DNA of 64,000 nt from Mesostigma viride (taxonomy: Eukaryota > Streptophyta > Mesostigmatophyceae > Mesostigmatales > Mesostigmataceae). Both the position numbers and the translations under genes were made by a program. The DNA lies in assembly GCA_009746045.1 (NCBI GenBank), contig RPFO01000089.1:1489666-1553665 (forward strand), written 5' to 3'. The notes under the pieces were generated by a model. It saw only the letters and a list, made by a program, of their open reading frames with translations, had not been told where the DNA came from and searched no databases. How positions within the stretch are numbered: the first letter of the stretch is position 1; each line of letters opens with the position of its first letter. Below are positions 23,204-58,281 of the stretch, piece by piece.

Positions 23204-23205
23204 GC

Positions 23206-33845: not shown

Positions 33846-34460
33846 AGTTAACGTAAAGGATTTGCGTTAGATGGATAGAGATTGTTACGCTCTTTCCAAC
33901 GGCACCTTGAACGCCTCATTTGGTTACGGGACGTAAAAGTTATGACGTTTCCTAGGCTGTGCCGACAGTACCCGGCGCGCCACTGTGGGCGCGTACGGAC
34001 ACAGGATGTACAAGTGTCACTATGACAGTCCGCAGGACGTTGACAGGACTTGTACAGGACTTGATGGTCAATTGATAGGTAGGCGTGCTGTAGCGCGCCA
34101 GGACCTAGGAGACAATTGATGCTGAGTAGTGTACGGATAGGTCCACAGGACTAGCCGTATGGACAATTGATAGATCTGCGCGCCAAAGGCGTGCCAGAGT
34201 CTGTGTAATCAATTGATTGACAGTTCAGCTGTGACAGAGCAGCTGAATACTTGGACGCGTCCCTAGCAAGCTATATGTATGACTTGGTAGCTCTAGGACG
34301 CTAGTTCTTGCGTGCACGATCTCTTGGCACTGCGACCCTGTCGCCTGTGCTGCGTGCAGTCTTGGAAGTGACGTGACTTACGTCTGTGTTCCTTATTCTT
34401 AATAAAGGCAACATTTCCTGCAAGAACCATAGCGGAATTATACACTACACTCTCACAACT
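33846..34460 (+). repeat. 5' LTR of element B
   Basis: 615 bp. Terminal hairpin at 33849-33869 (stem TAACGTAAA, loop gga, stem TTTGCGTTA). An AATAAA at 34401-34406 lies close to the end and could serve as the poly(A) signal of R. Confidence 0.92.
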
Positions 34461-34484
34461 CGTATTACAAGCCTTTTCACGATC

Positions 34485-35234: not shown

Positions 35235-35401
35235 ACGTCGGCCAATTTTAATCCAGTGCTGGTCGGCATTTCGTCGACTTTTCAACGGCGTTTCGCGGGG
35301 GCGGCGGCGACACCGGTGCAGGCGGCATAGTCGACAGTTGTACATACTTTCTTTTTTGCGGCTTTGCTCAGGTGTTCTTAGTCGACAGCTTGTAGTACAC
35401 C

Positions 35402-36511: not shown

Positions 36512-36651
36512 CTGTCTGAGGCAACCCCTACACACCATAATTCACCCAGGGGGGAGGCCAGGTGCTCCAATGCAGATTTTATATCTGGGCAACAAGAGGG
36601 TGATCTCCAGGTTCAGGTGGCCCCAGGTCACCTGGAGAGGTACAGGTTCCT

Positions 36652-39600
36652 ATGAAGACGTCCTTGACAGCTGGTGCAGCTGTAAGAATGTCTGACCCCA
36701 TGCATCCTCGTGCTGGGCACGAGGGTGGACCTCTCATTTTGAGAGAAACCAATGTACAACCACAGAGGGGTGTGAAGGCCTCTGGTGGTATGCATGTGGT
36801 CCCTGCTGGCGGTCCAGGTGTTGGGCATGAGCAGGGTGACTCAGGCTCTGAGTCAGAACAGGATGGAAGTCAGCATGGTGATGCTGGACAACCTGACAGC
36901 ACAGTCCTGACTGTGCCAGGGACTGCTTCCTCCGTGTACCAGGAGTTGGGTGCCCGAATCCACAACATGTTTGGGCATGCCACTTCTCTGTCAAACAACT
37001 TTGCCTTCCGTATGGGCAGGGCACCCCTTCTCAAGGCGTGCCAGCAAGCTGCCTCACGGTGTAAGTGCCAGTTGTCCTCCAACAAGCCCAGGAAATCACA
37101 TGCCAAAGCTCTACCTCAGAGCATTGGTGATCTGCAGTGTGATATCCAACACATCAGGGGCATGCAACTGTTGGTGTGCGTGGACAGGTACACAAAGTAC
37201 AAGGTGCTAGAGCATTTACCTTCTATGAAGAACAGGTACTTGCTGGCTGCCCTGCAGAATGTAAGAGCCAAGTTTCCTACCACAAGGATCCAGGTGGACA
37301 TGCAGTTTCAGCATCTCAAGGGTGATCCCACCCTTCCTGAGTTGCTGGTTACACCTAGGGAGGCTCATGGGCAGCAGGGTGCTATAGAAGGGCAATCCAG
37401 GAGGTCAAGAAATTGATCATCTCTGAAGACTGGGTACCCTTGTCTGCACCTGCACTTGTCAGGAGTGCATGGTTGAGGAACGTGGAGCAGCAGCTGAACA
37501 GCAGGGTCAATTTCTACTATGATGGAGTTGCTGTCAGCCCAATGGGTCTATATCATGGCCTGTGCCCCCACATGTGCTGGAGGGCTGGAAACATGCTGCA
37601 CATGTCACCTTTGCCAAGCTGAGGGAGAAGGACCGGGGTTGGAAGATGCTGGAGCCACAGTGGGTCAGAAGGTCCTAGCTTGGAAGGAACCTAGCCTTAT
37701 GGCAAACGTGGTAGCTGGAGTCCTGGGGTGGTTACCCAGGTTGATGAAGCTAGCCACGCATGCTTGGTCAGCATGGAGGACGAACCAAAGCATGTACACC
37801 GGCTGAGTTGGTCATATGTCAAGCCTAACCTGATGAATGAGGGCAGTCAGGCACAAGGCTCACAGGATCTGCAGGATTTTCAGGTCCCAAGTGACATCAC
37901 TGACGCAACGACCACATCTGTTGCAGGGGAATCTGTCAGCCCTGGCCAGGTTGCAGAGGTACTTGTTGAACAGGCTGCAAGGTCAACAGCTGGGGAGTCA
38001 ACTGTCAAGCCCAAGGCTCTAACCAAGCCCAGGGGGACTAGTTTGGCTGGATTGATTGGGGCTCTGCAAAGGGCCAAGAAGCAGCCCAAGGTAGCCAAGC
38101 TCAGGTGGCATGGCAATCTGGGGCTGGACACTGCCTTAGAGGTAGACACTAATTCTCAGGTTTCCATCATTGGGACCAGAGCTGCAGCAGGGTACAGCAT
38201 GACTGAACCCAGCTATCAGTTTGTGTCTGACTTCAGTGGCGGGGTACACGTGAAGGTACTGGGTGAGGTATCTATTCCTATCCTTGGACAGGACACTGCA
38301 TTTTGTGTCTTGGAGGGCTATCAGGGACCTGCTCTTCTGGGGCAGAATTTCCTATGCCAGGATGGGGTAGTGATCACGTCCTCTCTCCTGACTAAGGAAG
38401 GGGCTGGTCAGGTCCCACTGATTAATTTCAGGACCACTCACCTATCACGTGCAGTAACCAGGACGGTTAAGCGTGTGCAAGTGTGCCAGGGGCAGGAGCC
38501 CTTGGTTGATGACCTCATATTGCCAGCTGCTAGTCATCCAAGCAGTTTGGGCATTGGTCCTCACTCACTTGCTGGACACAGCCCTATCAACTACCAAGGC
38601 CTGGTGAAGCTCATGTCCTCTCCCATTATGTGTCCCCAGGTCACACTGGGTCTGATTAAATCTGGGGAGGACTGGATCTCCAAGAAATGCGTGGAACCTG
38701 TCAATGACCTGCCTCCTGCACGACGTCTACTCAAGCTCAAGTTTGTCATCAAGATGAAGGAGGTGGACGGGGTCAAGGTACCACATGTCAGGCCAGTGCT
38801 GAATGAGTTCAAGGGTACTGGTGAGTGCACTGCTGAGGAGTTGTATACCCCTGGCATGCTGCATGACACTTGGAGGCTGCTGCTGTGTGTATTTCTAGGC
38901 CTTCTCAACAAGGGCTTGGACTATGGCTCAGTGGTGGTAGACTTCAAGAGGGCATTTCTGGAGGGGGATGCAGATGTGGCACAGGAAAAGTGGGAGGGCA
39001 AGACGCCTTTCTATGTTAGGGTGCCTGCTGTATGGAAAAGGGACATCCACACGGAGTTCCTTAAAATCCTCAAGGGCCTGGAGGGCCTGAGGTCAAGTCC
39101 AATAATCTGGAGGGAGACTCTCAACCGTTTCCTGAAGGAGCATTGCAACTTGAAGGTCTCTCCTGTAGACCCCTGTCTGTTTCTGGGGCAATGGGAAGGC
39201 CTACCAGTGTATGCTTCGCTGCACGGGGATGACCTACATCTGATAGCTCCCACGTCGTGGCTTAAGGAGCTGATCTCCATCATTAAGTCCAAGTTTCCTC
39301 TGGGTAGGGAGCAATGGCAGGTGGAGAATGAGCCTCTGCTGTTTGTGGGCATGGAGGCCACACTGGTGAAGAAGGGGGGGAGTGGCGTATGCTGCTGGTG
39401 GGGGGCAATGATTATCAAGAGACCCTCATTAGCAAGCTTCCTCCAACCATCACACAGGCACTGTGTCCTATGGTGAGGGGCATGGTTGCTTGGGTGGCAG
39501 GCATTTCCAGGCCAGACCTTATGGTCATAGCCAGGTTGCCTGATGACATGCTGGTGGAGCTAGGGTCTGCCAAGGTGGCTGATCAGGTCAGGGCTTCATC

Positions 39601-40132
39601 TGGCATTCTGTTGTCTGCAGTGGATTTATCACAACCCATTTGCATGGAGCTGTATGTGGATAGCTCAATGGACAGCAGGCAGGTCTCCAAGGTCAGGGGC
39701 AGGGCTGCAGGGCTCTTTGTGCTCAGACAGGAAGGCCTGGGGAGTTTGGTGAGCTGGTTTAGTCGCCTGCACAAACGGGTGGCTGTCAGCAGTGATGTGG
39801 CAGAATGCAGGGCTATTTGTGAAGGCATTCACACAAGCCTTTATCTGAAGGAGTTGCTTCATCAGATGACTTCTAACACTCCTTGGCCACTTCAGGTTAC
39901 CACTCTTCTCAAAACAGACTCCATGGGGATGGTGCAGTTTGTGCACAGGCAGATGGCCAGAAGTAGGGACTTGGATTATCTCCTTCTTAAGGAATTGTCC
40001 TCCTTGGCCAATATTGAGCATATCCCTGGGGTTGACAATCCTGCTGATGCTTTGACCAAGCTAGTGCAGAAGGCAGCAGTGCAATACAAGGTTCTTCAGT
40101 CTCTGATGGACCCATCTCAGCAAGCTGTCTAA
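36652..40132 (+). pseudogene. pol: Pol of element B, frameshifted
   Basis: Integrase (36652-37416): LGARIHNMFGHATSL, CQQAASRCKC, VCVDRYTKYKVLEHL, VDMQFQHLKG, then REAHGQQGAIE where the frame changes (about 37385). Integrase tail follows in two other frames. From 37728 to 39476 one frame encodes the SH3-like strand pattern (HVHRLSWSYVKP), retropepsin (LEVDTNSQVSIIG, about 38140; EGYQGPALLGQNFLC, about 38310) and reverse transcriptase (VVDFKRAFLEGD; LRSSPIIWRETLNRF; YASLHGDDLHL at about 39212). A frame change near 39390 leads to RNase H (39389-40132: LYVDSSMDSRQVSKVRGRAA, DVAECRAICEGIH, LLKTDSMGMVQFVH, NPADALTKL). At least four frame breaks. Confidence 0.88.
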
Positions 40133-41082
40133 GCTGGTGCCTGGTTATAGGGCATTGGAGAGCAGATTGTGTGGTAGTGTCAGCATTGTGACTGGCATAA
40201 TACCTGTATTTTAGTCTGTACTAAGGCTCATGGACCATGGTACACTCACTCTGATTTTAATCAGGATACAGCCAGGTTTTGGCTGGGGTTCATGCTGTTG
40301 ACTACACAAGGTTGACAGGTCCATTACAGACCATGTATTCTATTTTTAAAAGAAATGTATATTTGTACATACTTCTCACAATGGTCTGGGAACCTTTATT
40401 CTGGGGTTTATAGGGCGGGGTTCGATTCCCTGGTATTATGTTTCTACAAGCTGGCCTGTTCAGGTGTTTGCCTGTTCAGACTTCCCTAGTTCCCCAGGGC
40501 AGGATTTAATTGTTGCCTATGTGTTTCATTTTGTCATTTGTTTGCTGTGGCAGTTTACCATCTGGCAAGTAGACGGGCGCCGTAAGACGGGCGCCAATAG
40601 ACCCCTGTTGAGAGAATGACAGGCAAACTATTGTAATACGCCTTACTTTGTCAAGTGGTATTTTAATTGTCATGGATTTATTGTACTTATATTGAATATG
40701 TACTGGGTTTTATGGGATTAGTATCTGGGATTAATGTAACTCACCGCCAGAAGGTCATTGTACTGGAGGCTCTACCGAGGTGATGGGATTAATTCCTGGA
40801 GAAGACCTCATAGAATTAACCTGTATGTATTTAATTTTGTGTGTTCTAATATCTGGTGGTACTCTGTAATGCCACTTCCATAGGTTTTTATCCATTTCTC
40901 ATGGAATGGTTTTCCCTGTGGCAGATCTGTTTCTTTTCCAGTTCCTTAAAAGAAAAGGCTGGGGGAATGGCAATGGCCATTAAAGACATCTGTTCAAGCT
41001 TCAAGCTGGAGTGAAGGACATTTCAAGCTACTTCAAGGGTCCCTGGCAGGGGATGTGATCCCTAAAGAAAAGAAGGGATTGG
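40133..41082 (+). other. 3' noncoding region of element B
   Basis: Carries the T-arm motif (40417-40430), twin GGGCGCC heptamers (40575-40581 and 40589-40595), a purine tract near 40947 and the one beside the LTR (41067-41082). Confidence 0.65.
40417..40430 (+). other. tRNA T-arm motif in the element B 3' UTR
   Basis: GGGGTTCGATTCCC, preceded by GGGC as in element C; 652 bp before the 3' LTR. Confidence 0.7.
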
Positions 41083-41697
41083 AGTTAACGTAAAGGATTT
41101 ACGTTAGATGGATAGAGATTGTTACGCTCTTTCCAACGGCACCTTGAACGCCTCATTTGGTTACGGAACGTAAAAGTTATGACGTTTCCTAGGCTGTGCC
41201 GACAGTACCCGGCGCGCCACTGTGGGCGCGTACGGACACAGGATGTACAAGTGTCACTTTGACAGTCCGCAGGACGTTGACAGGACTTGTACAGGACTTG
41301 ATGGTCAATTGATAGGTAGGCGTGCTGTAGCGCGCCAGGACCTAGGAGACAATTGATGCTGAGTAGTGTACGGATAGGTCCACAGGACTAGCCGTATGGA
41401 CAATTGATAGATCTGCGCGCCAAAGGCGTGCCAGAGTCTGTGTAATCAATTGATTGACAGTTCAGCTGTGACAGAGCAGCTGAATACTTGGACGCGTCCC
41501 TAGCAAGCTATATGTATGACTTGGTAGCTCTAGGACGCTAGTTCTTGCGTGCACGCTCTCTTGGCACTGCGACCCTGTCGCCTGTGCTGCGTGCAGTCTT
41601 GGAAGTGACGTGACTTACGTCTGTGTTCCTTATTCTTAATAAAGGCAACATTTCCTGCAAGAACCATGGCGGAATTCTACACTACACTCTCACAACT
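41083..41697 (+). repeat. 3' LTR of element B
   Basis: 615 bp. Its terminal hairpin has TTTACGTTA where the 5' LTR has TTTGCGTTA, giving a perfect 9-bp stem. Confidence 0.92.
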
Positions 41698-42790: not shown

Positions 42791-42829
42791 GAAAAGCCCT
42801 CTTGAAATCAATCAGCACAGAGCTATAGT
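42791..42829 (-). pseudogene. pol: 39-bp island of element D pol
   Basis: Between the TTAA element and element C. It encodes SVLIDFKRAFL, the first catalytic Asp block of reverse transcriptase. It reads in frame from 50865 on one side and to 33458 on the other. The last five bases (ATAGT) are the duplication made by element C. Confidence 0.85.
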
Positions 42830-43525
42830 AGTTAACGCCAAGCGCATTGGCGTGATCCTGATTCGGCATATCTCTGCGATTCCAGCGGCACCGGAACGAG
42901 TTCATTCCGACAAGTATCAAGAAAGTTATGGCGTTCCGACTTCTCGGTCGCGCGCGAGCGCGAGCCGGCTGTTCTTCTAAGTCGGACGTGAATATTTGCC
43001 GACGACATATGGGGTCGACAGTAATTCCTGGGCTGACAGGAATTAGGTGCTGTACCTACGACGGTATTGGATTGATACGTCGTACGCAGGAAATAGGAAC
43101 CTTAACCTGTGGTCTGTTGGTACCGCAGGCTTAGTCCTGGACTTCTAGGTGCAGATGCAATAGTCACTGTGGACTGTGCTCTGTGGTCATTGTGCCTGTA
43201 TGGCAGACCTACTGTATAGGAGTGGGCGCTGTACAGGTAGTGAATACTGTACCGGGGGTGTTATTACTGAGCAGGCCTCCTAGGCTGCTCAGGACTAGCA
43301 AGCACAGTGCACAAGTATATAAACAATAGGCCAGTGCCAAATGGGCATCTCTTGCGAGCCCGCCTCACGTGTTGTGCCTTGACTTGGCAAGCGCGTGTAC
43401 AAGCCTCAAGTGTGTGAGCGCTGTAAACATTATCCGATTTTAACAAAGCTCCGTTTCCAACCATATTCACACATTGCTGCATTGCAACCATATCCTTCAC
43501 ATTGCGTGTGATAAGAACGTTAACT
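42830..43525 (+). repeat. 5' LTR of element C
   Basis: 696 bp. Terminal hairpin 42835-42853 (stem ACGCCAA, loop gcgca, stem TTGGCGT). A TATATAAA box at about 43316-43323 marks the likely promoter, some 200 bp before the LTR end. Confidence 0.92.
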
Positions 43526-43618
43526 CAAATTACAACCAGTCTCAGCGGAACGGCCAGGAGGGTCGTTGCCGGTTGCGGTGTGCAGCGTTGACGACGAGAG
43601 GAGCTCGTCCGGTGGTGA

Positions 43619-44534
43619 ATGGTGCAGGAGGAACAACGGCAGCAGGATTTCCGGTTTCGGCAGTCTGCTGGGGGTTCGATTTCTCCTGAATTACGTCGTG
43701 TCGTTCGGGATCTATCTTTATTGCTTGCAGATCGTCCGCCTGTAAATCGCAGCTTCGTGCAATTCGTCGACGACCAGGTCGAAGATTGGGAGCGAATTCT
43801 GCGACACGTACAAACCATCGTCATTCCGGAGCACCGGAGCATCGACGACCTTGAGCAGGAGCTTCACGGGTTGGTCGGCATCCAGACGGTGATTACTGCA
43901 GTAGCAGAGCGAGTGCGGACGGAGTTGGCGCAAGGCGAGGCGAGGTTGCGGAGCAGCTGGCGCAGGGCGACACGAGTTTGTACCGACAGTAGCGGGCGCG
44001 GGAGTACCACGTGCTTTCGCAGGCGGCATCGGCGACGAGGGTGTTGCAGCGGGGCCAGTTAGGCGTGAACGACGCGGAGCGGAGCACTACAGGCGGCTTG
44101 CAGAGGTCGGGGCGACAGCGGAAGCCATCGCCGGAGGACAGCGCGCGACAAGAGTCGGCAGGTTTCCAGAGCGAGTAAGAGTTCCTTTTCAGGAGCTGCC
44201 CCCGCCCCTTCGCGTTCGTGTGACGCGTTGGGAGAGTTTGCACCTCTTGGGTACGATAGTGACCTTGAGGTAGGAGCAGGGGGTGTCGCTGGGCTAGGCG
44301 ACGAGACACTTGGCGACCACGAGGTGCCAAGTACAATCCGCGGGGTGCCAACGACGGGTTGTCACCTGTCTACTTTACCAACGGTGACGATTCAGTCATC
44401 GCGGGCCGACAGCGGGTCGACGACGGCGCAGCAGGTAGCAGGGTACCAGAGCTGATTGTGGTGAGCGACAGCGACGACGACAGCGACAAGGAGAACCAGG
44501 ACGCGCCTGGGGCCAGCCGTGGTGGTCTTGCCTG
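43619..44534 (+). pseudogene. Extra ORF (ORF0) of element C, broken
   Basis: Starts with ATG 43619 (MVQEEQRQQDFRF), 93 bp after the LTR. The first 110 residues look helical (LRRVVRDLSLLLADRP, VEDWERILRHVQTIVI, DDLEQELHGLVG). Near 43945 the likely frame changes, and a stop and further shifts follow. A last open piece (ELIVVSDSDDDSDKENQ) ends at 44534. Position and helical composition match the ORFs of B and D, but sequence identity is low. Confidence 0.55.
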
Positions 44535-44644
44535 AGTGGTAACACTTGGCACTTTCCTTTCTTGTTCAGTAGCTTATATTGCTTTAATTGCTGCTTGGCC
44601 ACTTGGCTGGCTGTAGCAGATCTGAACAGAGGCCATCATGGAGG

Positions 44645-45823
44645 ATGGAGCTATCAACCAACAAGCGGGCTTTATGGGCTTCGCGGCGCGGCGCTGGGCT
44701 GGATGGACGAGATGGACGCGATGGACGCGGTGGACGCGATGGACGCGGGGACGGCCAGGCGCTGGGAGACCAGGCTGAGGTGCCAGATAATCAGAGCCAA
44801 GGATCGCAGGGCGGGCAGCACGCGCCAGCCGCAGATCAAGCGGCGCCTAAGCGACCAACCGTTGCTGAGGGGTACGCGGTGCTAGGCCAGTTTCAGTCCA
44901 TCAAGGACAATTGGCAGCCCCGGGATGCTGAGAGGATGTTAGAGGACATGAACTTGTACACGGAGATATACAACGGTGACAAGCTTCGCATCCTGGCGTC
45001 TAGTGCCTACATACGGCAGTCGGCGAGGCGGCTGTTCAAGTTTGTTCGGGAGCGACACGCGGCGGGGGACACCTGGACGGCGTTTATGACGCGACTCAGG
45101 TCGTTCCTGAGTGACAAGAGGACCATAGATGGGTCCCACCTGAAGCAAGAATACCTGGACTACAAGCCCATCAAGGGGCAGCTAGTGGTCCACGCCTTTG
45201 AAGACTTCGTCAAGCTGAGGGAGGACGCCATGGCCAAGGGCTTCTTCGTCGCAGATCGGATGGCCATGGGCGACTTTCTCAAGTCGCTGCAGCTGGATCC
45301 GGTCACCATGGATAATGTGACCATCCACATGCGACAGGTCCATGGCTGGGCAGCCATGACGGACCAGTTGTATGAGTGTTTCAGCGGCAAGTACGTGGGT
45401 GGTAAGCGCCCTCGTCAGGGTGATGAGGAGGCCACTGAACCCACGGTTAAGTCCATGAGGGGATCGGGCCACGGGGGCCCAGCGCCCTCGAGAGGGCCTG
45501 AGACCTCTTCAAGGGGTCGAGGAAGGTCCAGGAGGGGGCGTGACAGAAGGGCTGGACGGGGGACCCCGCCGAAGTCGGGACATCCACAGTCCCAGTTTGA
45601 CTTCAAGAGGGTGGGTGGTCCTCCCAAGGCTGGGCCCAGCAGTGGGACCTCACGGGACATCAGTCAGGTGGAATGTTATTTCTGCCAGGGGAAGGGTCAC
45701 TTCAGGAATGAGTGTCCCTCGTACCTGAGGCAGGAAGGTCAGAGCAAGCCAGCTCAGGGTGGCAGCAAGGACAAGGCTGGTCCATCCCAGGACAAGGGCA
45801 AGGGCAAGGCTGCTGATCATTGA
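44645..45823 (+). CDS. gag: Gag of element C
   Basis: About 392 residues from the ATG at 44645 (MELSTNKRALWAS); a longer frame without ATG exists upstream. Contains a GRDGRDG-type repeat (about 20-38), a helical shell region (QFQSIKDNWQPRDAERMLED, YIRQSARRLFKFVRERHAAG, FEDFVKLREDAMAKGFFVAD), an RG-rich basic stretch and a CCHC zinc knuckle CYFCQGKGHFRNEC (about 344-357). The Lys/Gly/Gln-rich tail leads to TGA 45821-45823, beyond which the same frame stays open as pol. Confidence 0.88.
   Translation: MELSTNKRALWASRRGAGLDGRDGRDGRGGRDGRGDGQALGDQAEVPDNQSQGSQGGQHAPAADQAAPKRPTVAEGYAVLGQFQSIKDNWQPRDAERMLEDMNLYTEIYNGDKLRILASSAYIRQSARRLFKFVRERHAAGDTWTAFMTRLRSFLSDKRTIDGSHLKQEYLDYKPIKGQLVVHAFEDFVKLREDAMAKGFFVADRMAMGDFLKSLQLDPVTMDNVTIHMRQVHGWAAMTDQLYECFSGKYVGGKRPRQGDEEATEPTVKSMRGSGHGGPAPSRGPETSSRGRGRSRRGRDRRAGRGTPPKSGHPQSQFDFKRVGGPPKAGPSSGTSRDISQVECYFCQGKGHFRNECPSYLRQEGQSKPAQGGSKDKAGPSQDKGKGKAADH
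45821..45823 (+). other. Gag-pol UGA stop, element C
   Basis: TGA followed by CTT. Gag and the 1197-codon pol frame are in phase and separated only by this codon, so pol would be made by stop-codon readthrough. Confidence 0.8.
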
Positions 45824-48800
45824 CTTGAGCCTGCACACATCCCTGAACCCTGGAGGGTGCCCCCAGGGGTGTGTAATGAAGCTGCTAGTGACAGCAGTGA
45901 GGGGCAGCCCCATGCTCTAGTGAAAGAGCCTATTGGACACGATGGGGCAAGCTTGGTTACCACAGAGAGTATGCCAGCTGTAGCTGCAGTGGTTACTCGC
46001 CAACGTGCCCGCCATGGCGGTGCTGAGCCTGAGGTAGGACCTGGTGATGTGGACCCAGGTGGATCTCAGAAGCATTCTGACCGTGCAGGACTGGCACAGG
46101 ATGGTCAGGATGAGGATAGGGCTGGAGACAGTCTGACAGGCACGACCCTGGTGCCTCCTGTACATAAGGGATCTGTACATACCTTGAGTGCTAATAATGA
46201 CAATAAAAGGTTTTCTCTCTTGTATGACATTGCCTCAAGGTTGCATACCATGTTTGGCCATGCAGCTCAGTCTTTGCAAGTTGCTAGACGGCTGGGAGGA
46301 AGTGAGTTGTACTCCATCTGCCAACAGGTTGCTCAAGCTTGCAAGTGCAGGCTAGTTGCTAGAAAGCCCAAGCAGTCTCATGCCAGGACTCCTATTTTGC
46401 AGCCAGGCCATGTGCAGGTAGATATTCAGAGAATCAGGGGTTTGAAGCTGCTGGTGGCAGTGGACAGATATACCAAGTACAAGACCCTAGAGATCCTGCC
46501 TGACATGGAGAAGCCTACATTGATTGCTGCTCTGAAGTTGACAAGGAGCAGGTACCCTGGGTTGGAGTTGTTGCAGTGTGACATTCAGTTTGAGTGCTGT
46601 GAGAACCTGCCAGAGTTTCCAGAGTTGCTGATTACACCCAGGGAGAGCCACGGCCAGCAAGGGGTGGTGGAGAGAGCCATCCAAGAGATCAAGACTGTGC
46701 TGCTGGTGGAGAGGATTCCAAGGACGTCATCTGCCATTGTGACATCTGCATGGCTACGTTCTGTGGAGGACAGGCTGAACCTGAGGACTCCCATGTTCTT
46801 TGGTGACATTGCCATCAATCCTCTTATGCTGCATACCAGGATGCTGCCAGCTGATGCTGAGCAGGCATGGAAGGAGAAGCTAGAGGCCAAGTTCCTCAAG
46901 CTGAGGCAGAAAGACAAGGGCTGGAGTGTCCTAGAACCTAACGTTGGACAACAGGTTGTTGTGTGGAAGGAACCAAGCTTTCCAGGGAAACGTGGCAGCT
47001 GGCATGATGGGGTGGTGACCCGAGTAGAAGCCGCTGGCCATAAGTGCTGGGTGGCCATTGATGGCTCCCAAGCAGTGCACCGTCTGTCCTGGTCAAAGAT
47101 CCGTCCCCGGGGAGGTAATCAAGGAGACCTCTTCCAGGTGCCCGCTGGTGTACAAGGCGGGGGTGACGTGGAGCTTCCTGATCAGGGTGCTACAGCTGTA
47201 TCGAGCCCTCAGGGTGACCCTGGCCCGGCCCCTGGGGTACCTTCACATACGGTGGTTGGGCAAGCAGGCGGACAGGCTGCACCTCCGGAACGGCCCGACA
47301 CCAGGCCTAGGGGTGTGCGTCTATCAGATATTGTACAGGCTTTGCAAAGAGCCAAGAAGGAGCCTAAGGTGTCCAAGCTTGTCCAGTTGGATGAACCTGA
47401 GGTAGCTGCCATGGAGATAGATACCAATGCACAGGTTTCTGTCATGGGACCTCAGCATACAGGAGAACTGCTGGTCGGAGAACCAAGTTGCCCCTGGGTG
47501 TCTGATTTCAGTGGTAGGACGCATCTAAGGGTGTTGGGAGAGGTTACTGCCCCTGTCATGGGTGTGGATGTGACCTTCCTTGTCCTAGAGGACTATGATG
47601 GCCCTGTGATTTTGGGTCAGAATTTTCTGGGCAATCCTGGGATTTCTATCAGAGCTACAGCTCTGAGAAGAGATGGCTGGGGGATGATTCCCCTAGAAAA
47701 TTTCAGGACAACATTTCCAGTCAGGTGCAGGGCCAAGCCGGTCAAGGGTGTAAAATGGGATGAAGGGGAGGTGCCCCCAGCGGCCAGTTTGGTGATTCCA
47801 GCTGTGTTGCACCCCAGCAGTATTGGCATAACTCACAGGAGCCTTGCTGCACACTCTCCTTTGACATATGACCAGCTGGTCCAAGAGATGAGCTCGCCTA
47901 CTTTGTTTGAGGCTTGGAAGCTCGCCTTCTCCAAGGCATTGGAGGAGTGGTTGCAGTTTGAGTGTGCTGCACCAACAGACAGACGTCCCCCAGCATCAAG
48001 GAAGCTTGCTTTGAGATTTGTGCTGAAGAGGAAGGTTGTGGATGAGGTATCAGTGCCCCATGTCAGGCCTGTCCTGAATGAGTATCACGGCACGGGGAGT
48101 CTGCCAGGAGAGGAGCTATACACGCCAGGGATGCTACACGACACATGGAGAATTTTGCTATGTCTCTACGTGGGGTTGCTGAACAGGGGAGCAGCTATGT
48201 CATCAGTGCTGCTGGACTTCAAGAGGGCATTTTTAAAATCTGATCCAGAAGTGGCCAGGAGGGTGTGGAAGCAGGATGAGCCTTACTGTGTTGAGGTGCC
48301 TGCCATCTGGAAGCTGGAGCTGCATCAACAATTCCTGGTTATTCTGAAGGGCCTGGAAGGACTCAGGTCGAGCCCAATCATCTGGAGACTCACGCTGCAG
48401 GAAGCTCTGATCAGTGAGTGTGGCTTGAGAGTGTCTTCAGTTGATCCCTGTTTGCTGCTGGCCCAATGGGAGGGTCTGCCAGTGTATGCTAGTTTGCATG
48501 GAGATGATCTGCATTTGCTAGCCCCCACGACCTGGCTGAAGAAGTTTATTCCTGTCATCAGTGGCAAGTTTTCACTGGGCAAGGAGCTGTGGCAGGAGCC
48601 CAACAAGCCTGTAGTGTTCTGTGGAATGCAGGCTACCCTGTTCAGGAGGGACGGGGAGTGGAGTATCAGGCTTCAGGCTGGAGGAGATTATAAACAGACC
48701 ATTGTGAAGGCCTTGCCAGAGAAGATCACCCAGGCTGCAGGACCTGAGTTGAGAGGCATGTGGGCCTGGTTTGCCAGCATCTGTGGTCCGTCTTTGATGG

Positions 48801-49414
48801 TCCATAGCAGAATGCCTGATGAGGTGCTTGAGGATGAGAAGCCTCGAGTCATAGCCCGGTTGGTGGAGAGTACCCCTGATCTGATTTTGTCTGGGATTGA
48901 CTTTGCCCAGCCTATCACCTTGGAGATCTTTGTTGACAGTTCCATGGATGCTCGCCAGGTTACCAAGGTCAGGGGGAGATCTGCTGCTCTGTTTGCTTTT
49001 TATCAGAGCAGGGCAAGTTTGTTCAGCTGGTACAGCAGACTGCAGAAGAGGGTCTGTATCAGTTCAGATGTGGCAGAATGCAGGGCCATATGCGAGGGGA
49101 TCCAGTCCAGCCTGTACATAAAGGAGTTAATGCTGGAGCTGGCTTCAGTTACCCCTTGGACCTTGCAGATGGAGACGTTGTTGCTAACAGACAGCATGGG
49201 TATGGTCCAGTTTGTTCACAAGCAGCTGGCCAGGAGCCGGGACCTGGATTATTTGTTGCTGAAGGAGTTGGCCAGTTTGGTTGACTTGAAGCATATCCCT
49301 GGCGAGGAGAACCCTGCTGATGCATTGACAAAGCTGCCACACAAGGCCCCAGCCCAGTACAATGTACTGAGGAAGCTCATGAATGCTGACTGTCAAGTCG
49401 GTCTATCTGTCTAA
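45824..49414 (+). CDS. pol: Pol of element C: integrase, retropepsin, RT, RNase H
   Basis: About 1196 residues, uninterrupted. A disordered linker (1-125) has no protease motif. Integrase: LHTMFGHA and CQQVAQACKC (zinc-binding type, about 46230-46350), VQVDIQRIRGLKLLVAVDRY, CDIQFE, SHGQQGVVERAIQEIK (D, D, E). SH3-like tail: VVVWKEPSFPGKRGSWHDGV, HRLSWSKIRP (46940-47105). Retropepsin: MEIDTNAQVSVMG (about 47410) and GPVILGQNFLG (about 47600). Reverse transcriptase: VPHVRPVLNEYHGTG, LLDFKRAFLKSD, GLRSSPIIWRLTL, YASLHGDDLHLL (48486-48520). RNase H: IFVDSSMDARQVTKVRGRSA, DVAECRAICEG, LLTDSMGMVQFVH, NPADALTKL. RT and RNase H follow the copia pattern, but the protease lies after integrase. Confidence 0.9.
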   Translation, partial: LEPAHIPEPWRVPPGVCNEAASDSSEGQPHALVKEPIGHDGASLVTTESMPAVAAVVTRQRARHGGAEPEVGPGDVDPGGSQKHSDRAGLAQDGQDEDRAGDSLTGTTLVPPVHKGSVHTLSANNDNKRFSLLYDIASRLHTMFGHAAQSLQVARRLGGSELYSICQQVAQACKCRLVARKPKQSHARTPILQPGHVQVDIQRIRGLKLLVAVDRYTKYKTLEILPDMEKPTLIAALKLTRSRYPGLELLQCDIQFECCENLPEFPELLITPRESHGQQGVVERAIQEIKTVLLVERIPRTSSAIVTSAWLRSVEDRLNLRTPMFFGDIAINPLMLHTRMLPADAEQAWKEKLEAKFLKLRQKDKGWSVLEPNVGQQVVVWKEPSFPGKRGSWHDGVVTRVEAAGHKCWVAIDGSQAVHRLSWSKIRPRGGNQGDLFQVPAGVQGGGDVELPDQGATAVSSPQGDPGPAPGVPSHTVVGQAGGQAAPPERPDTRPRGVRLSDIVQALQRAKKEPKVSKLVQLDEPEVAAMEIDTNAQVSVMGPQHTGELLVGEPSCPWVSDFSGRTHLRVLGEVTAPVMGVDVTFLVLEDYDGPVILGQNFLGNPGISIRATALRRDGWGMIPLENFRTTFPVRCRAKPVKGVKWDEGEVPPAASLVIPAVLHPSSIGITHRSLAAHSPLTYDQLVQEMSSPTLFEAWKLAFSKALEEWLQFECAAPTDRRPPASRKLALRFVLKRKVVDEVSVPHVRPVLNEYHGTGSLPGEELYTPGMLHDTWRILLCLYVGLLNRGAAMSSVLLDFKRAFLKSDPEVARRVWKQDEPYCVEVPAIWKLELHQQFLVILKGLEGLRSSPIIWRLTLQEALISECGLRVSSVDPCLLLAQWEGLPVYASLHGDDLHLLAPTTWLKKFIPVISGKFSLGKELWQEPNKPVVFCGMQATLFRRDGEWSIRLQAGGDYKQTIVKALPEKITQAAGPELRGMWAWFASICGPSLMVHSRMPDEVLEDEKPRVIARLVESTPDLILSGIDFAQPITLEIFVDSSMDARQVTKVRGRSAALFAFYQSRASLFSWYSRLQKRVCISSDVAECRAICEGIQSSLYIKELMLELASVTPWTLQMETLLLTDSMGMVQFVHKQLARSRDLDYLLLKELASLVDLKHIPGEENPADALTKLPHKAPAQYNVLRKLMNADCQVGLSV

Positions 49415-50162
49415 AAGCTGAGAGCTGGGTGCTTAAGTCTCTGGATATCAGGCTGGGAGCTTGATTGTACATAATCCTGAGCACACCTTGAGGGGTGAGA
49501 CATGTCTCTGGTGTGGGAATGTCTGACATTGTCTCTGATGGAGAGATGTCTATCTGGGGTTTTCATCTCAGTCTGAGGTTTCCCCAGATCTGTGGTTTGT
49601 GGGCGGGGTTCGATTCCCTGGTGCCGTCTTAAGGCGGAGTTTCACGGACTGGCTGACCCATCCACCATGCTGGTGAGGTGGCGACAGGTCCCCTGATTTT
49701 CCACGGTTGGAACGAGTATGGGAGCTTGTGTTTTGCATGTGCTTCGCGTAGATGTTGTGTCTGGTTCGATAAGGGGCAGCAGACCGGCGCCGACTCCCGT
49801 CTGGGGGTCAGCAATGTTTTCTGATGAGCTGTTGTGGGTGATCTGTGGGGTTTCGCCTAAGGTCCTGAAGGTTGTACATACTTCTCAAGTTCTTAGCTGA
49901 ACACCTATGGGCTGCCACAGTTGGCCAACCTCTTGTACATGGGTAACACAACGAGCCTCCCGTGAAGGGATAGGGACTCATTGTAATTTGTTTGTGCTCC
50001 TGAGCCAGTATGGGTGCTATGTACATATAATAAGGAATCCAAGCTGACTGTCATGCCCAGCGGGTTGTGACTTGTAGTCTGGGGAGGATATCCAGTACCC
50101 ATTGTGTGTGTTTGTATGTAGACTTGTGTGAGCTGCTACAGCTCAAGAAAAGAAAGGATTGG
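49415..50162 (+). other. 3' noncoding region of element C
   Basis: Carries the T-arm motif at 49605-49618, one GGCGCC core (about 49795-49800) and the polypurine tract at the LTR edge. No ORF of note. Confidence 0.65.
49605..49618 (+). other. tRNA T-arm motif in the element C 3' UTR
   Basis: GGGGTTCGATTCCC, preceded by GGGC as in element B; 545 bp before the 3' LTR. Confidence 0.7.
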
Positions 50163-50859
50163 AGTTAACGCCAAGCGCATTGGCGTGATCCTGATTCGGC
50201 ATATCTCTGCGATTCCAGCGGCACCGGAACGAGTTCATTCCGACAAGTATCAAGAAAGTTATGGCGTTCCGACTTCCCGGTCGCGCGCGAGCGCGAGCCG
50301 GCTGTTCTTCTAAGTCGGACGTGAATATTTGCCGACGACATATGGGGTCGACAGTAATTCCTGGGCTGACAGGAATTAGGTGCTGTACCTACGACGGTAT
50401 TGGATTAATACGTCGTACGCAGGAAATAGGAACCTTAACCTGTGGTCTGTTGGTACCGCAGGCTTAGTCCTGGACTTCTAGGTGCAGATGCAATAGTCAC
50501 TGTGGACTGTGCTCTGTGGTCACTGTGCCTGTATGGCAGACCTACTGTATAGGAGTTGGCGCTGTACAGGTAGTGAATACTGTACCGGGGGTGTTATTAC
50601 TGAGCAGGCCTCCTAGGCTGCTCAGGACTAGCAAGCACAGTGCACAAGTATATAAACAATAGGCCAGTGCCAAATGGGCATCTCTTGCGAGCCCGCCTCA
50701 CGTGTTGTGCCTTGACTTGGCAAGCGCGTGTACAAGCCTCAAGTGTGTGAGCGCTGTAAACATTATCCGATTTTAACAAAGCTCCGTTTCCAACCATATT
50801 CACACATTGCTGCATTGCAACCATATCCTTCACATTGCGTGTGATAAGAACGTTTAACT
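50163..50859 (+). repeat. 3' LTR of element C
   Basis: 697 bp, with one extra T near the end relative to the 5' LTR and a TATATAAA box at about 50649-50656. Confidence 0.92.
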
Positions 50860-50864
50860 ATAGT

Positions 50865-53236
50865 AGGGCACACCCTTAACCAGAAAAGACAGAAATATAC
50901 ACAGCAGTATCCTCCACGTGTCATGCAGCATCCCTGGAGTATAGAGCTCCTCATCTAACAACTGGCCAGTGCCATGATACTCGGTTACAACTGGTCTGAC
51001 ATGTGGCACCTGGACACCATCCACCTCCTTGAGCTTGAGGACAAACATCAATCTGAGCAGCTGGTGAACTTCTGGCAGCTCATCCACAGGTTCTGCACAG
51101 TTGGAAACTATCCACTCATGCCCAGAGGCAACAAAGCCAAGAGTCCATGCCTTAGCCATCTTGGGGCTTTGCATCATCTCGACTAACTGGCGCCAGGGAA
51201 TAGGACTGTGAGCAGCTATCTGGTACCTGTTTACCCCTAACTGCCGTGGATCAAAGGTGGTTGGGATGATCAACAGGTCCTCAGCTATGGGTTCCTGACC
51301 TTGGGGACCCTCTACTTGCTGACTCTTAACAGCCTTCACCGCCACAGCAAGACCCTGGGAATAGTGATATCTTTCAAGGGGGAGGCTGCCCCTGCCTTCT
51401 AGTGCCAACTCATCAGAGGTCAAAGTAACCCCTGGCATGCACAAGAAGTTCTGACCCAGTATGGCAGGCCCCTGATAGCCCTCTACCACACAGAACGTGG
51501 TGGGCACCCCTAAGATAGGCACACTCACTTCCCCTAGGATCTTCATGGACACCTTTCCTGAGAAATCAGACACAGCAAGGCAACTGGGATGGGACATCTG
51601 CAAGCCTACAGCATCCTCTTCCCTGATGACAGACACCTGTGAGTTGGTATCTACCTCCATTGTAGCTGCCCAGCACGACCCCCACCCCGTGAGCTTGGAT
51701 ACCTTGGGATCACGCTTGCTGCGCATGAGTGCTCGGATGACGTCCGCCATGAGAGGCCCCCGGGCCTTAGGTGGCTGCCCCGTCCCCTCTGGCCTTGTGA
51801 CAGTTGCTTCAGCAGCCTCTTCCTGCTCGTCATCCTCCAGCAGGGACAGACCATCATCCACCACCAGAGGATTGTTAGCTGCTGCTGCCTGGCTCTGGCC
51901 TGGCTCCTCAACCCAACTGGGAGGGCCTGGCCCGTCTGCAGGCCAGATTGCATGTGGCCTTCTCTCCTTGACATGAGCCCAGGACAACCTGTACACGTGC
52001 CTTGGATCCTTTTCCAAAGCCACCAGGCAAGATCTGTTAGCTTCTTCCACACGAGTGACAACCCCATCCTGCCACTTCCCCCGCTTGCCTGGTATAGATG
52101 GTTCCTTCCACATCCTGACCTTCAGCCCCACCGGCTGAGGCCTCAGCACATTCCAGTTCTTGTCCTTACGTCTCAGCTGGGCAAACAGCCTGTCTGCCTT
52201 CCTAAGACTGGCCTGCACCACGTTTTCAGGCAATAAGCTATACTGCAGGGCCAGGGGAGAGACAGCCACACCATCAAAGTAATAGTTAACCCTGTGGTTC
52301 AGCTGCTCTTCTATCCCCTTACACCAGGCTGCCCTCTCTAAGGCAGATGCCACAAGTGGCACTGTCTCTGCTGCTAGCACCACTGTCTTCACTTCACATA
52401 TGGATCTCTCCACAGCCCCTTGCTGCCCATGACTCTCTCTGGGGACTACTACCAGCTTACAAGGCAGCTGGTCCTGATGCTTGAGCAAACAGTCAAACTG
52501 CAAATCTGCCTGCACACTCTTGCACACCCCAAAGCCTGGGATCAGGGCCTTCATACCCAACAACAAGTGATGCTCCTGCATACCAGGCAGAACGTCTATC
52601 AGTCTATATCTACTGAACCTGTCCACCCCCACTAATATATACAAGCCCCTAATATGCTGGATATCCATCTGGATATCGCCACGCTCTCTAGCAGGCTCCC
52701 TAGCATGGGACTGGGGTGGGTGAACAGCGTTCTCCTGGCAACCACAGTTCTCAGCAGCAGCCTGGCAAGCCTCCCACAAAGGCTCTCTCCCTAGCTTCCA
52801 AGCAAACATTGCAGCCTGCCCAGAATGCCCAAACATGTGATGCAACCTATGGCCAGCCTCAGCATAGCTCAGCACTCTCTCAGTACTGACCTGGTGAGAC
52901 GTCTGGACCGTGTGTGGGGACACATGATCCACACCTGAGGTTCCAGGGCTTCCCTGCAGGCCGTCCTGACTCCCCAAGCCAGGCCCTGCACCCTGGACCG
53001 CTCCAGGCCCTTCCAGCAAGGTCCTTTGGCCCTTCAGGCCAGCACTGACCTGCTGGAGACCCGCCACCTGCATGAGGCATAGGGAATTCAGCTGCAGCAT
53101 TGTTATTGCAATCCAGTGGAAGAACAACATCTTTACACCCTTGGTGCTGCACAAGGGGCACACCCCTATCCTTATGTACATCCAGCACACCTTCCCCAAG
53201 GGGTGATTGACTATTTACAGGGGATGGCGTAGCTAG
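50865..53236 (-). pseudogene. pol: Pol of element D, main part
   Basis: Follows the gag UGA. Linker, then integrase (LHHMFGHSGQAAMFAWKLG, IHPP-type Cys region with NCGCQ, VGVDRFSRYRLIDVL, ADLQFDCL, SHGQQGAVERSICEVKT), SH3-like tail (VRMWKEPSIPGKRGKWQDGV, HVYRLSWAHVKE), retropepsin (MEVDTNSQVSVI; EGYQGPAILGQNFLC) and the start of reverse transcriptase (VPHVRPVVTEYHGTG, WRILLCIFLSFLVKG). Except for a frame change near the start of pol, it is open until element C cuts it at 50865. The reading then resumes at 42829 and 33458. Confidence 0.88.
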
Positions 53237-53239
53237 TCA
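53237..53239 (-). other. Gag-pol UGA stop, element D
   Basis: TGA followed by CTA on the minus strand. TGA CTA is the best-known efficient eukaryotic readthrough context. Confidence 0.7.
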
Positions 53240-54604
53240 CTGCTGCCCAGACTGGCCCCCTGCCCCAGCAGGCTTGCATGGCCTTCCTGTCAGGGCACTC
53301 ACGACGCCAGTGACCCTCCTTGCCACACACAAAGCATGCTCCACCCTTCTTCCCAGACCCAGCCCCACCCTTGCCAGGCTTCCCCTGGCCTCCTTGAGAC
53401 TGCCCACCCTGCTTGCCCTGATTGCCTTGAGCTTGGCTCTTGCCTTGCCCTTGGCCACCCTTGCCCTGCTGACCACCAGCTTGCTGGCTCCCAACAACCC
53501 CTCCTTGGGAACCTGCTCCTTTGCCACGCTGAGCCCCATTCCTCTGGCGCCTGAAGTGCCTACGCTTGTTAGGCCTTGCCCCATCACGGGCTGGGTACCC
53601 GGGGACATCACCTTGGGCCTGTACAGCGGAGGTGGCATTGCTGCCGTGGGACTGTATGGCTTTGCAGGCAGGGTCTGGCTTCCTGATACTAAGGATCACC
53701 AGCTCTAGAGCACGCAAGGACCCATCTGTCTGGTTTAGAAACATGCGGGCACTGTTCCTCCCATCCACACTCAACCCCATTCGGTCCAGGAAATAGTCTG
53801 CCAAGGCCCTATCTGTGACCAGGAAGCCATACTTGGCCCCCTTGTCTCTGATTCGGTTGAGCCTGGCCCATTCCTCTGCAACAGGGCCAATGATCTCGAA
53901 CGTGTCATACTGGTGTTTATAGTAGTTTGTGAGGTTTAGAACCTTGTCTGAAAACTCCTCCCTCAGTCCATCCAGGAACTGTGCCCAGGTTAGCTTGTCC
54001 TTCACAGCCACTCTAGTCTTTTCCCGCACACGTTCTGAGGAATCCCTGTTGCATGTGGACGAGTGAAACACCTGCACTAGATTCACAGTGGGGTCCACGG
54101 AGAGCACCACCAGCTCCATGTCCTCAAGCCACTTATCCAGTGCTTCCTGCGCTAATGGTGGACAGAGAGGCTTTTGGCCATTCATGACGGACACCGCGCT
54201 CATATGAGGCCTCGACCCCGGTAATGCCCTAACTGTCTCAGCCACAGCGGGCGTCACAGTACAGTAACGACACCACTCGGGCCAGCAGGGTTGGGGGAGG
54301 GCACGTCTACATGACGACGCTTACCATTGTCGTCAGAGGACAAGTCCCTCTTACGTTTCTCCAGCGTTGGTTGTCCGCCAGCCACCAGCACAGCATCCGA
54401 AGGCCACTCCGCCCGCGCCCGCTTGGCCTCCTCCACCGCCTCCTCATGTTTGCGCTTGCCTCCCGGCCTCTTGCTCCCGTCACCGTTGCTAGCAGGGATC
54501 GCTTCCCCCGCCATGGGCTCCTTCTCCTTTCGCACCTCCTGGCCCGCATTCGCAGGCCTCTCCTCCTCGCCTTTGTCGCCGTCGCCAGCCTTCCCACGAG
54601 GCAT
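53237..54604 (-). pseudogene. gag: Gag of element D, frameshifted
   Basis: Starts at ATG 54604 (MPRGKAGDGDKGEEE), Lys/Glu-rich for about 115 residues, with a frame change near 54260 into VAETVRALPGSRPHMS. The shell region is full length (LDKWLEDMELVVLSVDPTVN, EEFSDKVLNLTNYYKHQYD, EWARLNRIRDKGAKYGFLV, ALADYFLDRMGLSVDGRNSA). A Gln/Gly-rich tract and the zinc knuckle CFVCGKEGHWRREC follow. A further one-base slip just after the knuckle hides the original end, KPAGAGGQSGQQ then TGA at 53237-53239. Confidence 0.82.
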
Positions 54605-54726
54605 TATAATATGTACAAAGCGACACTGCAACACGCAAGGTTATGCAAAAGAAGACAGGAATTCAAGCGTCGGGCAGCTCCTCTGCCTCGCGCTCTGCCT
54701 CAGCTGCGGCTTCCCTCTCCCGCTCT

Positions 54727-55806
54727 TCAGCAGTACGTGGCAGCCACCGGCGTCCTCACCCGAGGAATAGCTCGCACCTCCTCCTCAGAATAATGTCCAA
54801 GAAGGCGACTGACGGGCCTCCCGTCTGAGGTTTGGTCAAACGGCACACGCCGCTCGTTAGGGCGTCTGCCCCACACCAGGTTACGCACCCAGCGTCCTCC
54901 CCCACCTCGTCGCTCGTTGTATGCCCCACTGCCGTAAGTGCTGTAGTCGTGCAACGGCTCCGGCGGGACGTGATAATCTGCACGCTGTCGCTCGGAGAAC
55001 CCTGCTGCAGAACCGCCCCCCTCGTCCAACTGCTGGGACGAGCGTGTAATGATACCCGACGGGCGGTCGACGAACTCGTCGTGCACTGCCTGCGGAGACA
55101 GGTCCCGACCTGTGACGATTTCCACCGACGGACCGTATGCACCGGGGGCTCCAACAACACGAGGAGTGTCTAATGTTGACCAGATGCCGGCGGGACGCGT
55201 GGTTATAAGCCACCGATCTGCGTGGCCCCGCGACTCCTGGAGCAAAATGTTAACGAGGTGCTCACAGGTTTGAGCAACTACTTCTTGCGAGGACCAGGGG
55301 CTGTCCTGCTCACGCACCTGCGCGTCACGCACAAGGTGTGAAGCGTTCGTCCCTTCGCCGAGGAAGCTTGTTGCGACCCAATGGTTAAACAATCGGGTGG
55401 CACCAAGACTTATCGCGACCAACTGGCCCAACGCTTCCCGAGCGAGATCCAAACCGTGCAGCGTTACGTGACCCCCTTGATAGGCGATTTCAAGGCTGTA
55501 AATGAGCGCTGCGACCTTGTCTCTCAGCGCAATCAAGCGCTCGACCGTCACACGACTCGTCTCCCCGGGAGAAGTCGTGGCCCGCACACGCATCACAACA
55601 GGATCGTTGGCAGACGGCCCTTCTGCGTTGCCGAAGACGGCTACCCAGCCTCCTCGCGCTAAGCCTCTCGCCAGATGCGCAGCTTGTACAAACGTCGACG
55701 CGGTTTCCGGCCGGCTATACGGGTGCAGAGGTCCTTCTGCCTCCTGCCGCGGCACTGCCGCTCCTTGGCTTGGCGATTGCTCAAGCGCCGGAATGTCTTC
55801 CGACAT
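54727..55806 (-). CDS. Extra ORF (ORF0) of element D
   Basis: 359 residues from ATG 55806 (MSEDIPALEQSPS), 27 bp after the 5' LTR, intact, upstream of gag and in its own frame. N-terminal 60 residues are disordered; the middle is helical (VTVERLIALRDKVAALIYSL, LAREALGQLVAISLGATRL, EVVAQTCEHLVNILLQES); the C-terminal 130 residues are Gly/Arg/Tyr-rich (YSTYGSGAYNERRGGGGRW, NLVWGRRPNERRV). No known domain. That it stays open in the oldest copy while gag and pol have frame breaks is notable. May act with Gag; this is a guess. Confidence 0.65.
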   Translation of the reverse strand: MSEDIPALEQSPSQGAAVPRQEAEGPLHPYSRPETASTFVQAAHLARGLARGGWVAVFGNAEGPSANDPVVMRVRATTSPGETSRVTVERLIALRDKVAALIYSLEIAYQGGHVTLHGLDLAREALGQLVAISLGATRLFNHWVATSFLGEGTNASHLVRDAQVREQDSPWSSQEVVAQTCEHLVNILLQESRGHADRWLITTRPAGIWSTLDTPRVVGAPGAYGPSVEIVTGRDLSPQAVHDEFVDRPSGIITRSSQQLDEGGGSAAGFSERQRADYHVPPEPLHDYSTYGSGAYNERRGGGGRWVRNLVWGRRPNERRVPFDQTSDGRPVSRLLGHYSEEEVRAIPRVRTPVAATYC

Positions 55807-55833
55807 GAAATGCGCCACAGAAGCAATAGTACG

Positions 55834-56479
55834 AGTTAGCAAACAAGCCCAGAGCGTGTGAGCTCTTGGTCTTTCACGCCGAGTTGAGCCAATTGCTGGG
55901 GGACAGCAACCTTTAGCCCAAACACCAAGCCACACCTTGTTGGTCACTTCCACGTTCAAGTGGGCAACCAGAGCGCGTGCTTCCGAGATAGCTTGGCCAT
56001 CCCCATGACCAAGCTATATGCCTCTTTGTTGCTCCTCGTTCCCATCGGCGTGACGAGGCACATTGCAGGCTTGCTAGCAAATCCTCAACGTCCACTGGCA
56101 TCCTTGCAGAGCCAGGACGAACTGGATTTACCTAGCCACCTGCAACCTAGGAAGTACAGGACCTGTCACAAGCCTGCAAGACCTAGTATCCTTGCAGCCT
56201 TGTGCCAGTTCCAGTACCCCACCAGTCCCAGGCTGCTGTCCCTCCTGGTCTACGTGGACTACAGTCACGTGATAGACAGGCTAAGCCTGTGCAGGCACGG
56301 CCTGCCACGTGTCCTGTCCACTGCCCCAGAGGGTTGCACCCTCGCCGGCCGCGGACGGCTAGGACTTCGGGATCTCATATCTTTCTCGTCCCTTGTCTGT
56401 TTCAGGCGGTCAGCACGGCGTTGGAAAGGTCTTTCCAAACTGCATCCACTTAGCATATTGGCCGCCCAAAATGCTAACT
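55834..56479 (-). repeat. 5' LTR of element D
   Basis: 646 bp. On the minus strand it starts AGTTAGCATTTTGG and ends TTGCTAACT. Similar throughout to the LTR of A (for example acagacaaggga, ggacaggacacgtggcagg, gcctgcacaggcttagcct). The terminal hairpin is stem TTAGCATTTTGG, loop gcgg, stem CCAATATGCTAA. The right flank starts CGTAT; the partner duplication is lost with the other end. Confidence 0.85.
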
Positions 56480-58281
56480 CGTATCATGCTCCACCATATA
56501 TTCCCAAATATTACAGGTGGGGGGACATGCAGCCCCAGATTTTCAGGTCGTTCTGATGAGCGCAGCTCTAGTTGATGGATTTCCTAGGTAGCCACCTGTG
56601 ACGAAGCTAAGGGAGGTTTTTTAGTGTATCTTACCACATAAACACCCCTTTATCCATCCAAACCATGCAAAAACTGGCCAAACCACATGCTGCCAACCTC
56701 TGCACATACGTTACCTCCTATAACACAGGCAAGGTTTGACGCCATTCTGGCAAGAACTGCCCAAGTTACAACCATTCCAAGACGGCCACCCATGTAGACA
56801 CTACAAGGAAATTAGAGTAACTATTCAGCCACACTAGCACCTCCTTCTTCATCAAAGACATCTGCAAACTGACCAAAGCACACATAATTAACTCTTGCAC
56901 GCTGACGGCAACGCATGCTCAACGTAGGGGGTCATTGTGACAAGAACTACTCAAGTTGATGGGCTTCCTATACGACCACCTGACAAGGCGCTACGGACCA
57001 CTCAGTAAGTTAGTTACCCCACAGTGCCACTTCATATGCCATCCAACATGCACCAAAACCATGCTGAGTATGTTTACAAAGTACAAAGGGGTGGCCACGC
57101 ACCTCATATGTCTTCATCATCCCTCCAGCATGGCCAGCCTTGTAAATATGTTCATAGCCTTGAGGATGGTAGCCCTAATATGCCTAAGCAGCATTTCATA
57201 TGTTTCTCCTAGGTTAGAGTGTAAGGTTGATGACAACAAAGCTAATCAACTCAACAACACCTCCTAAACTGTCCTCCCCGGCACGGATGACAAACTGGGA
57301 CTATGGAGGGCAAGGAACCAAGTAGGAACATGGTATATATAGGTTGCATGCAGTCATGCATGTCAACCATGGTTGGCTCAGCACATTGTAGTCTTGTCAC
57401 ATAATCATAACAAAGGAAAGCTCAAACAACCATTGGTGCCAGCTATCTACATGCAGTCACACAAATGCAATATCTCAAACATCGTCATCACTATAACACT
57501 TCCATCCCTGCACGATAAAATGCAAAGAAACCATTGGCGGGCCTTCAGCGCATGAGCGCTGTGATGCCGCTGCGAAGAGAGGGTGCGTCACTCTCACACA
57601 ACAAGAAGCGTCCATGCGCACAACATCCTTGCCGGAACACGTTTTATGAAATGCCTTATACCTTCCTGAAGAGCTATAGGCTGCGACTGAAGCGGCCCTG
57701 ATCACGACATCAACGAAAACAATCTAAAGCTGCCAGGTATTCGACAACACAACGGCAAGCGACGGCGAGCTAGCTGGCGGAAACTGCCCAAAAAGAGCGC
57801 AAAAAACTTCGAACGATGAGCTCATACAAGAAAGCACTGATAGCAGATAACATTCGCGACAAATCTGTACCTCGCCCTCGTAAATCCCTCGCCCAAGCGC
57901 GCAACAATGTTCAGCCGTTCTTCCATGGACAGGTCAGACACACACTGCGCAGGTCTGAACAATTACTTACCGATAATGGCCAAAAATCTGGCAAAAAGCA
58001 CCAGCTCGGTTTAGAATTCGATGCAACCGATATTAACGCCTGCTTCACGGTCAGAACAACCCCAACAACCGCGATTTTACAGCCGCTATCATGAATTCTA
58101 TTTCATTCCGCGCCACCAAAAAAATTCAGATTACCCCCCATGCCGATGGCATAAAAAAACGACAGCGATATTGTAAACCAGCTTATTTCCGCCACAAGCT
58201 AACATTATAAACTCATAGTTTTTTAGATTCGAGTAAAATTTTTGCATTTTGCCTTCCCTATAGTGTGGTAGTTTTGCCTGA
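56480..58281. other. Noncoding flank of element D
   Basis: AT-rich with no convincing gene. A short Lys-rich frame at 57816-58094 (92 residues, MSSYKKALIADNIRDK) starts with ATG but has no recognisable domain and could be a first exon or chance. No repeat relationship to the rest of the window was noticed. Confidence 0.4.

Follow-up and report, generated by a model that had tools for sequence, protein, structure and literature searches.

A probable copia-like LTR retrotransposon lineage in Mesostigma viride with a likely retropepsin-like domain between integrase and reverse transcriptase

Introduction

The position of integrase (IN) is a standard marker by which copia elements are told from gypsy elements. 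The canonical copia and gypsy orders, and the Gmr1 exception to them, are described in the available text of two papers (PMC12440569, PMC2774666). A 64,000-nucleotide stretch of a Mesostigma viride contig (RPFO01000089.1), here called the window, contains one canonical copia element and four related LTR elements, A to D. As in Ty1/copia, the lineage of A to D appears to have an RVT_2-type reverse transcriptase (RT), with IN ahead of RT and RNase H (RH) behind it, and 5-bp target duplications. Unlike Ty1/copia, its putative protease (PR) comes after IN, its RT motif is HGDD, and its LTR ends are not TG...CA. It resembles Ty3/gypsy elements and retroviral pol in that the protease adjoins RT and in its nearest profile, PF13975 (gag-polyprotein putative aspartyl protease). 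However, IN comes first in the lineage and not after RNase H, and its RT is of the RVT_2 type.

Gmr1, of the gypsy lineage, is a precedent for a changed IN position, although the order given for it in the accessible part of its description is copia-like and does not place IN before PR (PMC2774666). Tca2 of Candida albicans also has a UGA between gag and pol, but the portion of its description at hand reports a potential pseudoknot 3' of the stop (PMC2194720), and none beyond chance was found in A to D. Troyka likewise has LTR ends other than TG...CA; in the excerpted account, however, it has a gypsy-like order, CG...CG ends, and 3-bp duplications (PMC12440569). Dinoflagellate DIRS elements with reordered domains appear in the available text of another paper and are not this lineage (PMC5890265). 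Two Mesostigma genome papers mention LTR elements in their main text, so far as accessible, and neither copia nor gypsy is named there (PMC6947507, PMC7027972). No report of an IN-PR-RT order was found in searches of open-access papers, among the titles and abstract openings listed. A to D probably represent one copia-like LTR retrotransposon lineage with the order gag-IN-PR-RT-RH, for which a readthrough and processing mechanism is proposed.

Structure of element C

Element C occupies 42830-50859 on the plus strand. Its 5' LTR (42830-43525, 696 bp), which runs AGTTAACG...CGTTAACT, is 99.28% identical to the 3' LTR (50163-50859, 697 bp) when the pair is compared. The LTR termini, AGTTAACG...AACT, and the target-site duplication ATAGT, present on the left (42825-42829) and on the right (50860-50864), were read from the sequence. 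A polypurine tract (50145-50162) adjoins the 3' LTR, and A and B have similar tracts at theirs. Gag (44645-45820) starts at the first in-frame ATG, 44645, of a stop-to-stop ORF (44588-45823) and contains a CCHC knuckle near ORF residues 362-378 (Pfam zf-CCHC, E 1.3e-4). It ends in UGA CUU (45821-45826), a readthrough-type context, and pol follows in the same frame. Paired LTRs, a target duplication, a polypurine tract, and both gag and pol mark C as an LTR retrotransposon.

The pol ORF (45824-49414, plus strand) is intact and encodes 1196 aa. The original prediction placed integrase, protease, RT, and RNase H in that order here, and this was borne out in an ORF open for all 1196 codons. The integrase (46211-47116, residues 130-431) aligned to retroviral integrases in a structure comparison. 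The retropepsin-like domain (47393-47659, residues about 524-612) was located with PF13975 and a PDB profile search. The putative copia-type RT and RNase H (47822-49408, residues about 667-1195) carry HGDD at residues 892-895. C interrupts the RT gene of D. That element has minus-strand orientation, and its break falls at about 50857; a related protein, P0004, matches D up to this cut and not past it there.

Related elements and proteins

Element A (16463-26668, plus strand) is a broken copy with LTRs 99.7% identical and UGA CUU at 19233. Element B (33845-41697, plus strand) is a frame-shifted copy with LTRs 99.0% identical, and its IN tail, PR, and RT lie within a single ORF (37695-39476). 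Such high similarity between the two LTRs of A, and between those of B, suggests that the lineage has moved recently. In element D (50857-56480, minus strand), the RT of which is cut by C, IN, PR, and the start of RT lie within a single minus-strand ORF (50854-53214). D has an LTR-like stretch at 56250-56480, and a second LTR was not found in the window. A (ACCTC) and B (GCTAG) also have target duplications of 5 bp, again read from the sequence. The LTRs of B and C have the termini AGTT...AACT, and those of A have AGTT...AAAT. The usual tRNA primer site begins with TGG, as does the sequence after the 5' LTR of the in-window copia. After the 5' LTRs of C, B, and A (from 43526, 34461, and 17128), the sequences are CAAATTACAACC, CGTATTACAAGC, and CGTATTATTGTT, with no TGG start.

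Relatives were found outside the window. P0002 (1214 aa, ENA) is 62% identical over 98% and has the same domain order end to end. P0004, a genome protein of Mesostigma viride (EukProt), shows 98.4% identity to D across 64 residues; P0008 (Mesostigma viride, EukProt) shows 88% identity to A across 90 residues; and P0006 matches B at 98.8% identity across 248 residues. Two transcripts cover parts of pol, with P0011 spanning the IN tail to DTNSQ and P0010 spanning PR into RT. No relatives were found by tblastn in viral and prokaryotic contig collections.

Two of the matches are to dinoflagellate transcript proteins in EukProt. P0009 (Lingulodinium) is 97.5% identical to D over 158 residues (51277-51750), and P0010 (Prorocentrum lima) is 85% identical to A over 116 residues (20938-21285). 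These close matches could come from either library contamination or horizontal transfer. RT fragments on the minus strand at 33249-33466 are 91-97% identical to P0004 and are perhaps part of D's RT that was displaced by later insertions. Inside A there is a 1039-bp direct repeat (21725-22763 and 23206-24244, 99.9% identical) that is perhaps a nested insertion.

Integrase and reverse transcriptase

The IN of C possesses a finger of the form H-x4-H...C-x-C and a D-x52-D-x29-E core, both marked by invariant residues, and an SH3-like tail. With Pfam, rve matched weakly in the relatives as well as in the IN segment of C, and Agenet was weak on the IN tail. NCBIfam gave only an IS481 transposase on the IN core (E 0.07 and 0.17). 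The identities of integrase, RT, and RNase H in the pol of C are supported by structure comparison of predicted models. The full-length AlphaFold model (mean pLDDT 54.3) is confident for most of RT and RNase H and not for PR.

RVT_2 was matched by six relatives scanned, B (ORF 37695-39476), P0002, and P0004 to P0007, with E values from 1.6e-12 to 0.014, and exceeded its cut-off only in P0005. It was absent in C and P0003, and RVT_1 was matched by none of the scanned sequences. The RT profile of the lineage aligned to the in-window copia RT with hhalign (E 1.8e-5). From these profiles the RT of the lineage can be assigned to the copia type. Its motif is HGDD in all six of the sequences aligned, of which two are near-identical. 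The counterpart is HVDD in the in-window copia and YVDD in most elements.

The canonical copia (8892-14236, plus strand, LTRs 98.99% identical) serves as a control. Its Pfam domains, Pol_BBD (157-233), gag_pre-integrs (263-305), rve (342-440), SH3 (504-568), and RVT_2 (810-1053), show the usual order in the same genome. No alignment was obtained between PR and IN of the new lineage and this copia; when the whole of P0002 was included in the comparison, only its RT matched. Since their domain order is not that of copia, the elements are named copia-like and not strict copia members.

Retropepsin-like domain

In the pol of C, MEIDTN begins at residue 530, with DTN at 533-535, and ILGQNFL is at 596. 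LGQNFL had been expected about 60 residues past the DTN motif, and the measured distance is 66 residues. A DTN site common to A, B, and D had also been predicted and was found as EVDTN at 20827, where a stop follows directly in A, LEVDTN at 38136 in B, and MEVDTN at 51660 (minus strand) in D. The catalytic triplet is DTN and not D[ST]G in every readable copy.

PF13975 was matched by five of the six core segments, two of the five being near-identical, with a best E of 9.7e-4 and 20.1 bits against a curated cut-off of 28.2. All protease profile matches were under their curated cut-offs. None of four reversed controls matched any protease family. In D, B, and P0002, the PF13975 match takes in the Asp and ILG motifs and the stretch between them; on the PR segment of C, the unrelated DUF6898 scores level with it. 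In one PDB profile search all three sequences at E<=10 were retropepsins (E 0.12-0.65), and another gave citrate lyase (E 0.81) beside retropepsins. In PDB profile searches with the longer alignments (A1, A2), unrelated chains dominated, and retroviral integrase also appeared at E 0.53 and 0.59. The whole pol of C had no match in PDB by phmmer. The domain between IN and RT is therefore likely retropepsin-like, as weak but agreeing profiles suggest, a description of sequence resemblance. The original prediction of a retropepsin is supported to this extent by PF13975 and PDB. Its profile part agreed, weakly, and modelling of the segment spoke neither for nor against it: AlphaFold of the PR segment alone gave a pLDDT of 42.6, and the Foldseek and VIA matches of this low-confidence model were retroviral proteases but insignificant, and are not taken as proof.

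The domain may instead be a conserved pseudo-protease, marked by DTN, that is retained as a module aiding RT in pairing or folding, with Gag-Pol cut by a host protease or left uncut. This is unlikely. DTN in all copies where it is readable would favor it, but Asp and Thr are kept in all of them. The corresponding triplet of the in-window copia is DSA, so the third residue varies within this genome. The dN/dS of PR also resembles that of RT and IN. In simple Nei-Gojobori counts on the single pair A and D, one of them a broken copy, it was 0.121/0.644 = 0.19 for PR (130 codons), 0.17 for RT (112 codons), and 0.14 for an IN stretch (89 codons). The PR segment evolves under purifying selection, like RT and IN.

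It is even less probable that the segment between IN and RT is some other small beta domain and no protease, any protease having been lost or gone unrecognized. The weak profile scores and the unsuccessful structure model are in keeping with such a domain. Against it, the Pfam and PDB profiles agree on one family, the reversed controls are negative, and the match spans both motifs in D, B, and P0002.

Search for a protease ahead of integrase

The absence of DSG or DTG between the gag stop and the IN finger of C had been predicted, and the 139 residues there contain no D[ST][GAN]. The sole D[STN][GAN] in the pol of C is the DTN. DSG does occur in the linker between gag and IN in B (GDSGSESE) and P0008 (VGVDSGSQ) and is absent from this linker in C, A, D, and P0002; A has VGSGSQ at the site of VDSGSQ in P0008. 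C also has two DSG triplets ahead of its gag (44114 and 44408). None of these DSG triplets, whether in a linker or before gag, is shared; they were rejected as candidates for an upstream protease and are read as chance. No conserved protease candidate was found ahead of integrase, the presence of one having been set beforehand as a result against the proposed order.

Extra ORFs are present between the 5' LTR and gag in B (285 aa, 34377-35234) and D (428 aa, 54727-56013). They had no significant Pfam match (DUF7800 at E 0.069 for B; none at E<=1 for D) and are marginally similar to each other (E 0.02-0.04, 18% over 66 residues).

Recurrence of the domain order

The order had been proposed as a lineage trait. 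It appears to be one, since it recurs beyond C in D and P0002 and piecewise in B and in the transcripts P0010 and P0011. That it arose by accident, through rearrangement or nesting of one copy, is hardly credible: A to D are nested and three of the four are broken, but C is intact, the same order is found in D, B, and the separate protein P0002 at about 40-60% identity, and P0002 contradicts such an accident.

Gag stop context

The gag stop context is UGA CUU in C and A and UGA CUG in B. In D, a frameshift lies between the knuckle and the stop, which is UGA CUA G by alignment with A. UGA-CUN is thus present at the gag stop in all four elements, D by alignment. TGA followed by CT makes up 123 of the 4733 stop trinucleotides in the window (2.6%), so its presence in four of four is hardly expected by chance, with the reservation that A and D are closely related. 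In human genes, UGA CUA is a high-readthrough consensus, according to the part of the source available (PMC4359377). No excess of RNA structure was found after the gag UGA (z -0.82 in C, 0.27 in A, 1.54 in B, and -0.35 in D). As the copies stand, gag and pol share a frame in C and A only; in B and D the two are in different frames. The frame after the gag stop is open for 152 codons in A and 47 in B. The context suggests that the gag UGA is read through to make Gag-Pol.

Proposed mechanism and significance

In the UGA-CUN context, some ribosomes would continue past the gag stop and produce Gag-Pol. The retropepsin domains of neighboring Gag-Pols could then pair in the particle, which would release IN and RT-RH. 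RT-RH would copy the element RNA into DNA, and IN would join this DNA to the host with a 5-bp stagger. The order most likely came about in one of two ways. A copia-like ancestor may have had its protease module relocated between IN and RT, or it may have lost the protease and gained another there.

Whether A to D form a distinct deep branch of LTR retrotransposons, with a copia-like RT, IN-PR-RT-RH order, DTN, HGDD, C-x-C finger, AGTT...AACT ends, and UGA-CUN readthrough, is more doubtful, and the chance of it is put a little short of even. A third order in a recently active lineage would mean that the protease module can change its place relative to integrase. It would also offer a natural test of whether the protease must adjoin Gag. 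Classifiers based on domain order would misfile elements of this kind.

Other features of the window

A 496-bp direct repeat, 100% identical, is found at 4383-4878 and 6652-7147. It flanks a minus-strand ORF with a copia-type gag (Retrotran_gag_2, E 6.9e-7), and the whole (4383-7147) is perhaps a young, gag-only, non-autonomous element. An ORF at 7236-8717 contains a protein kinase domain (E 9.1e-10).
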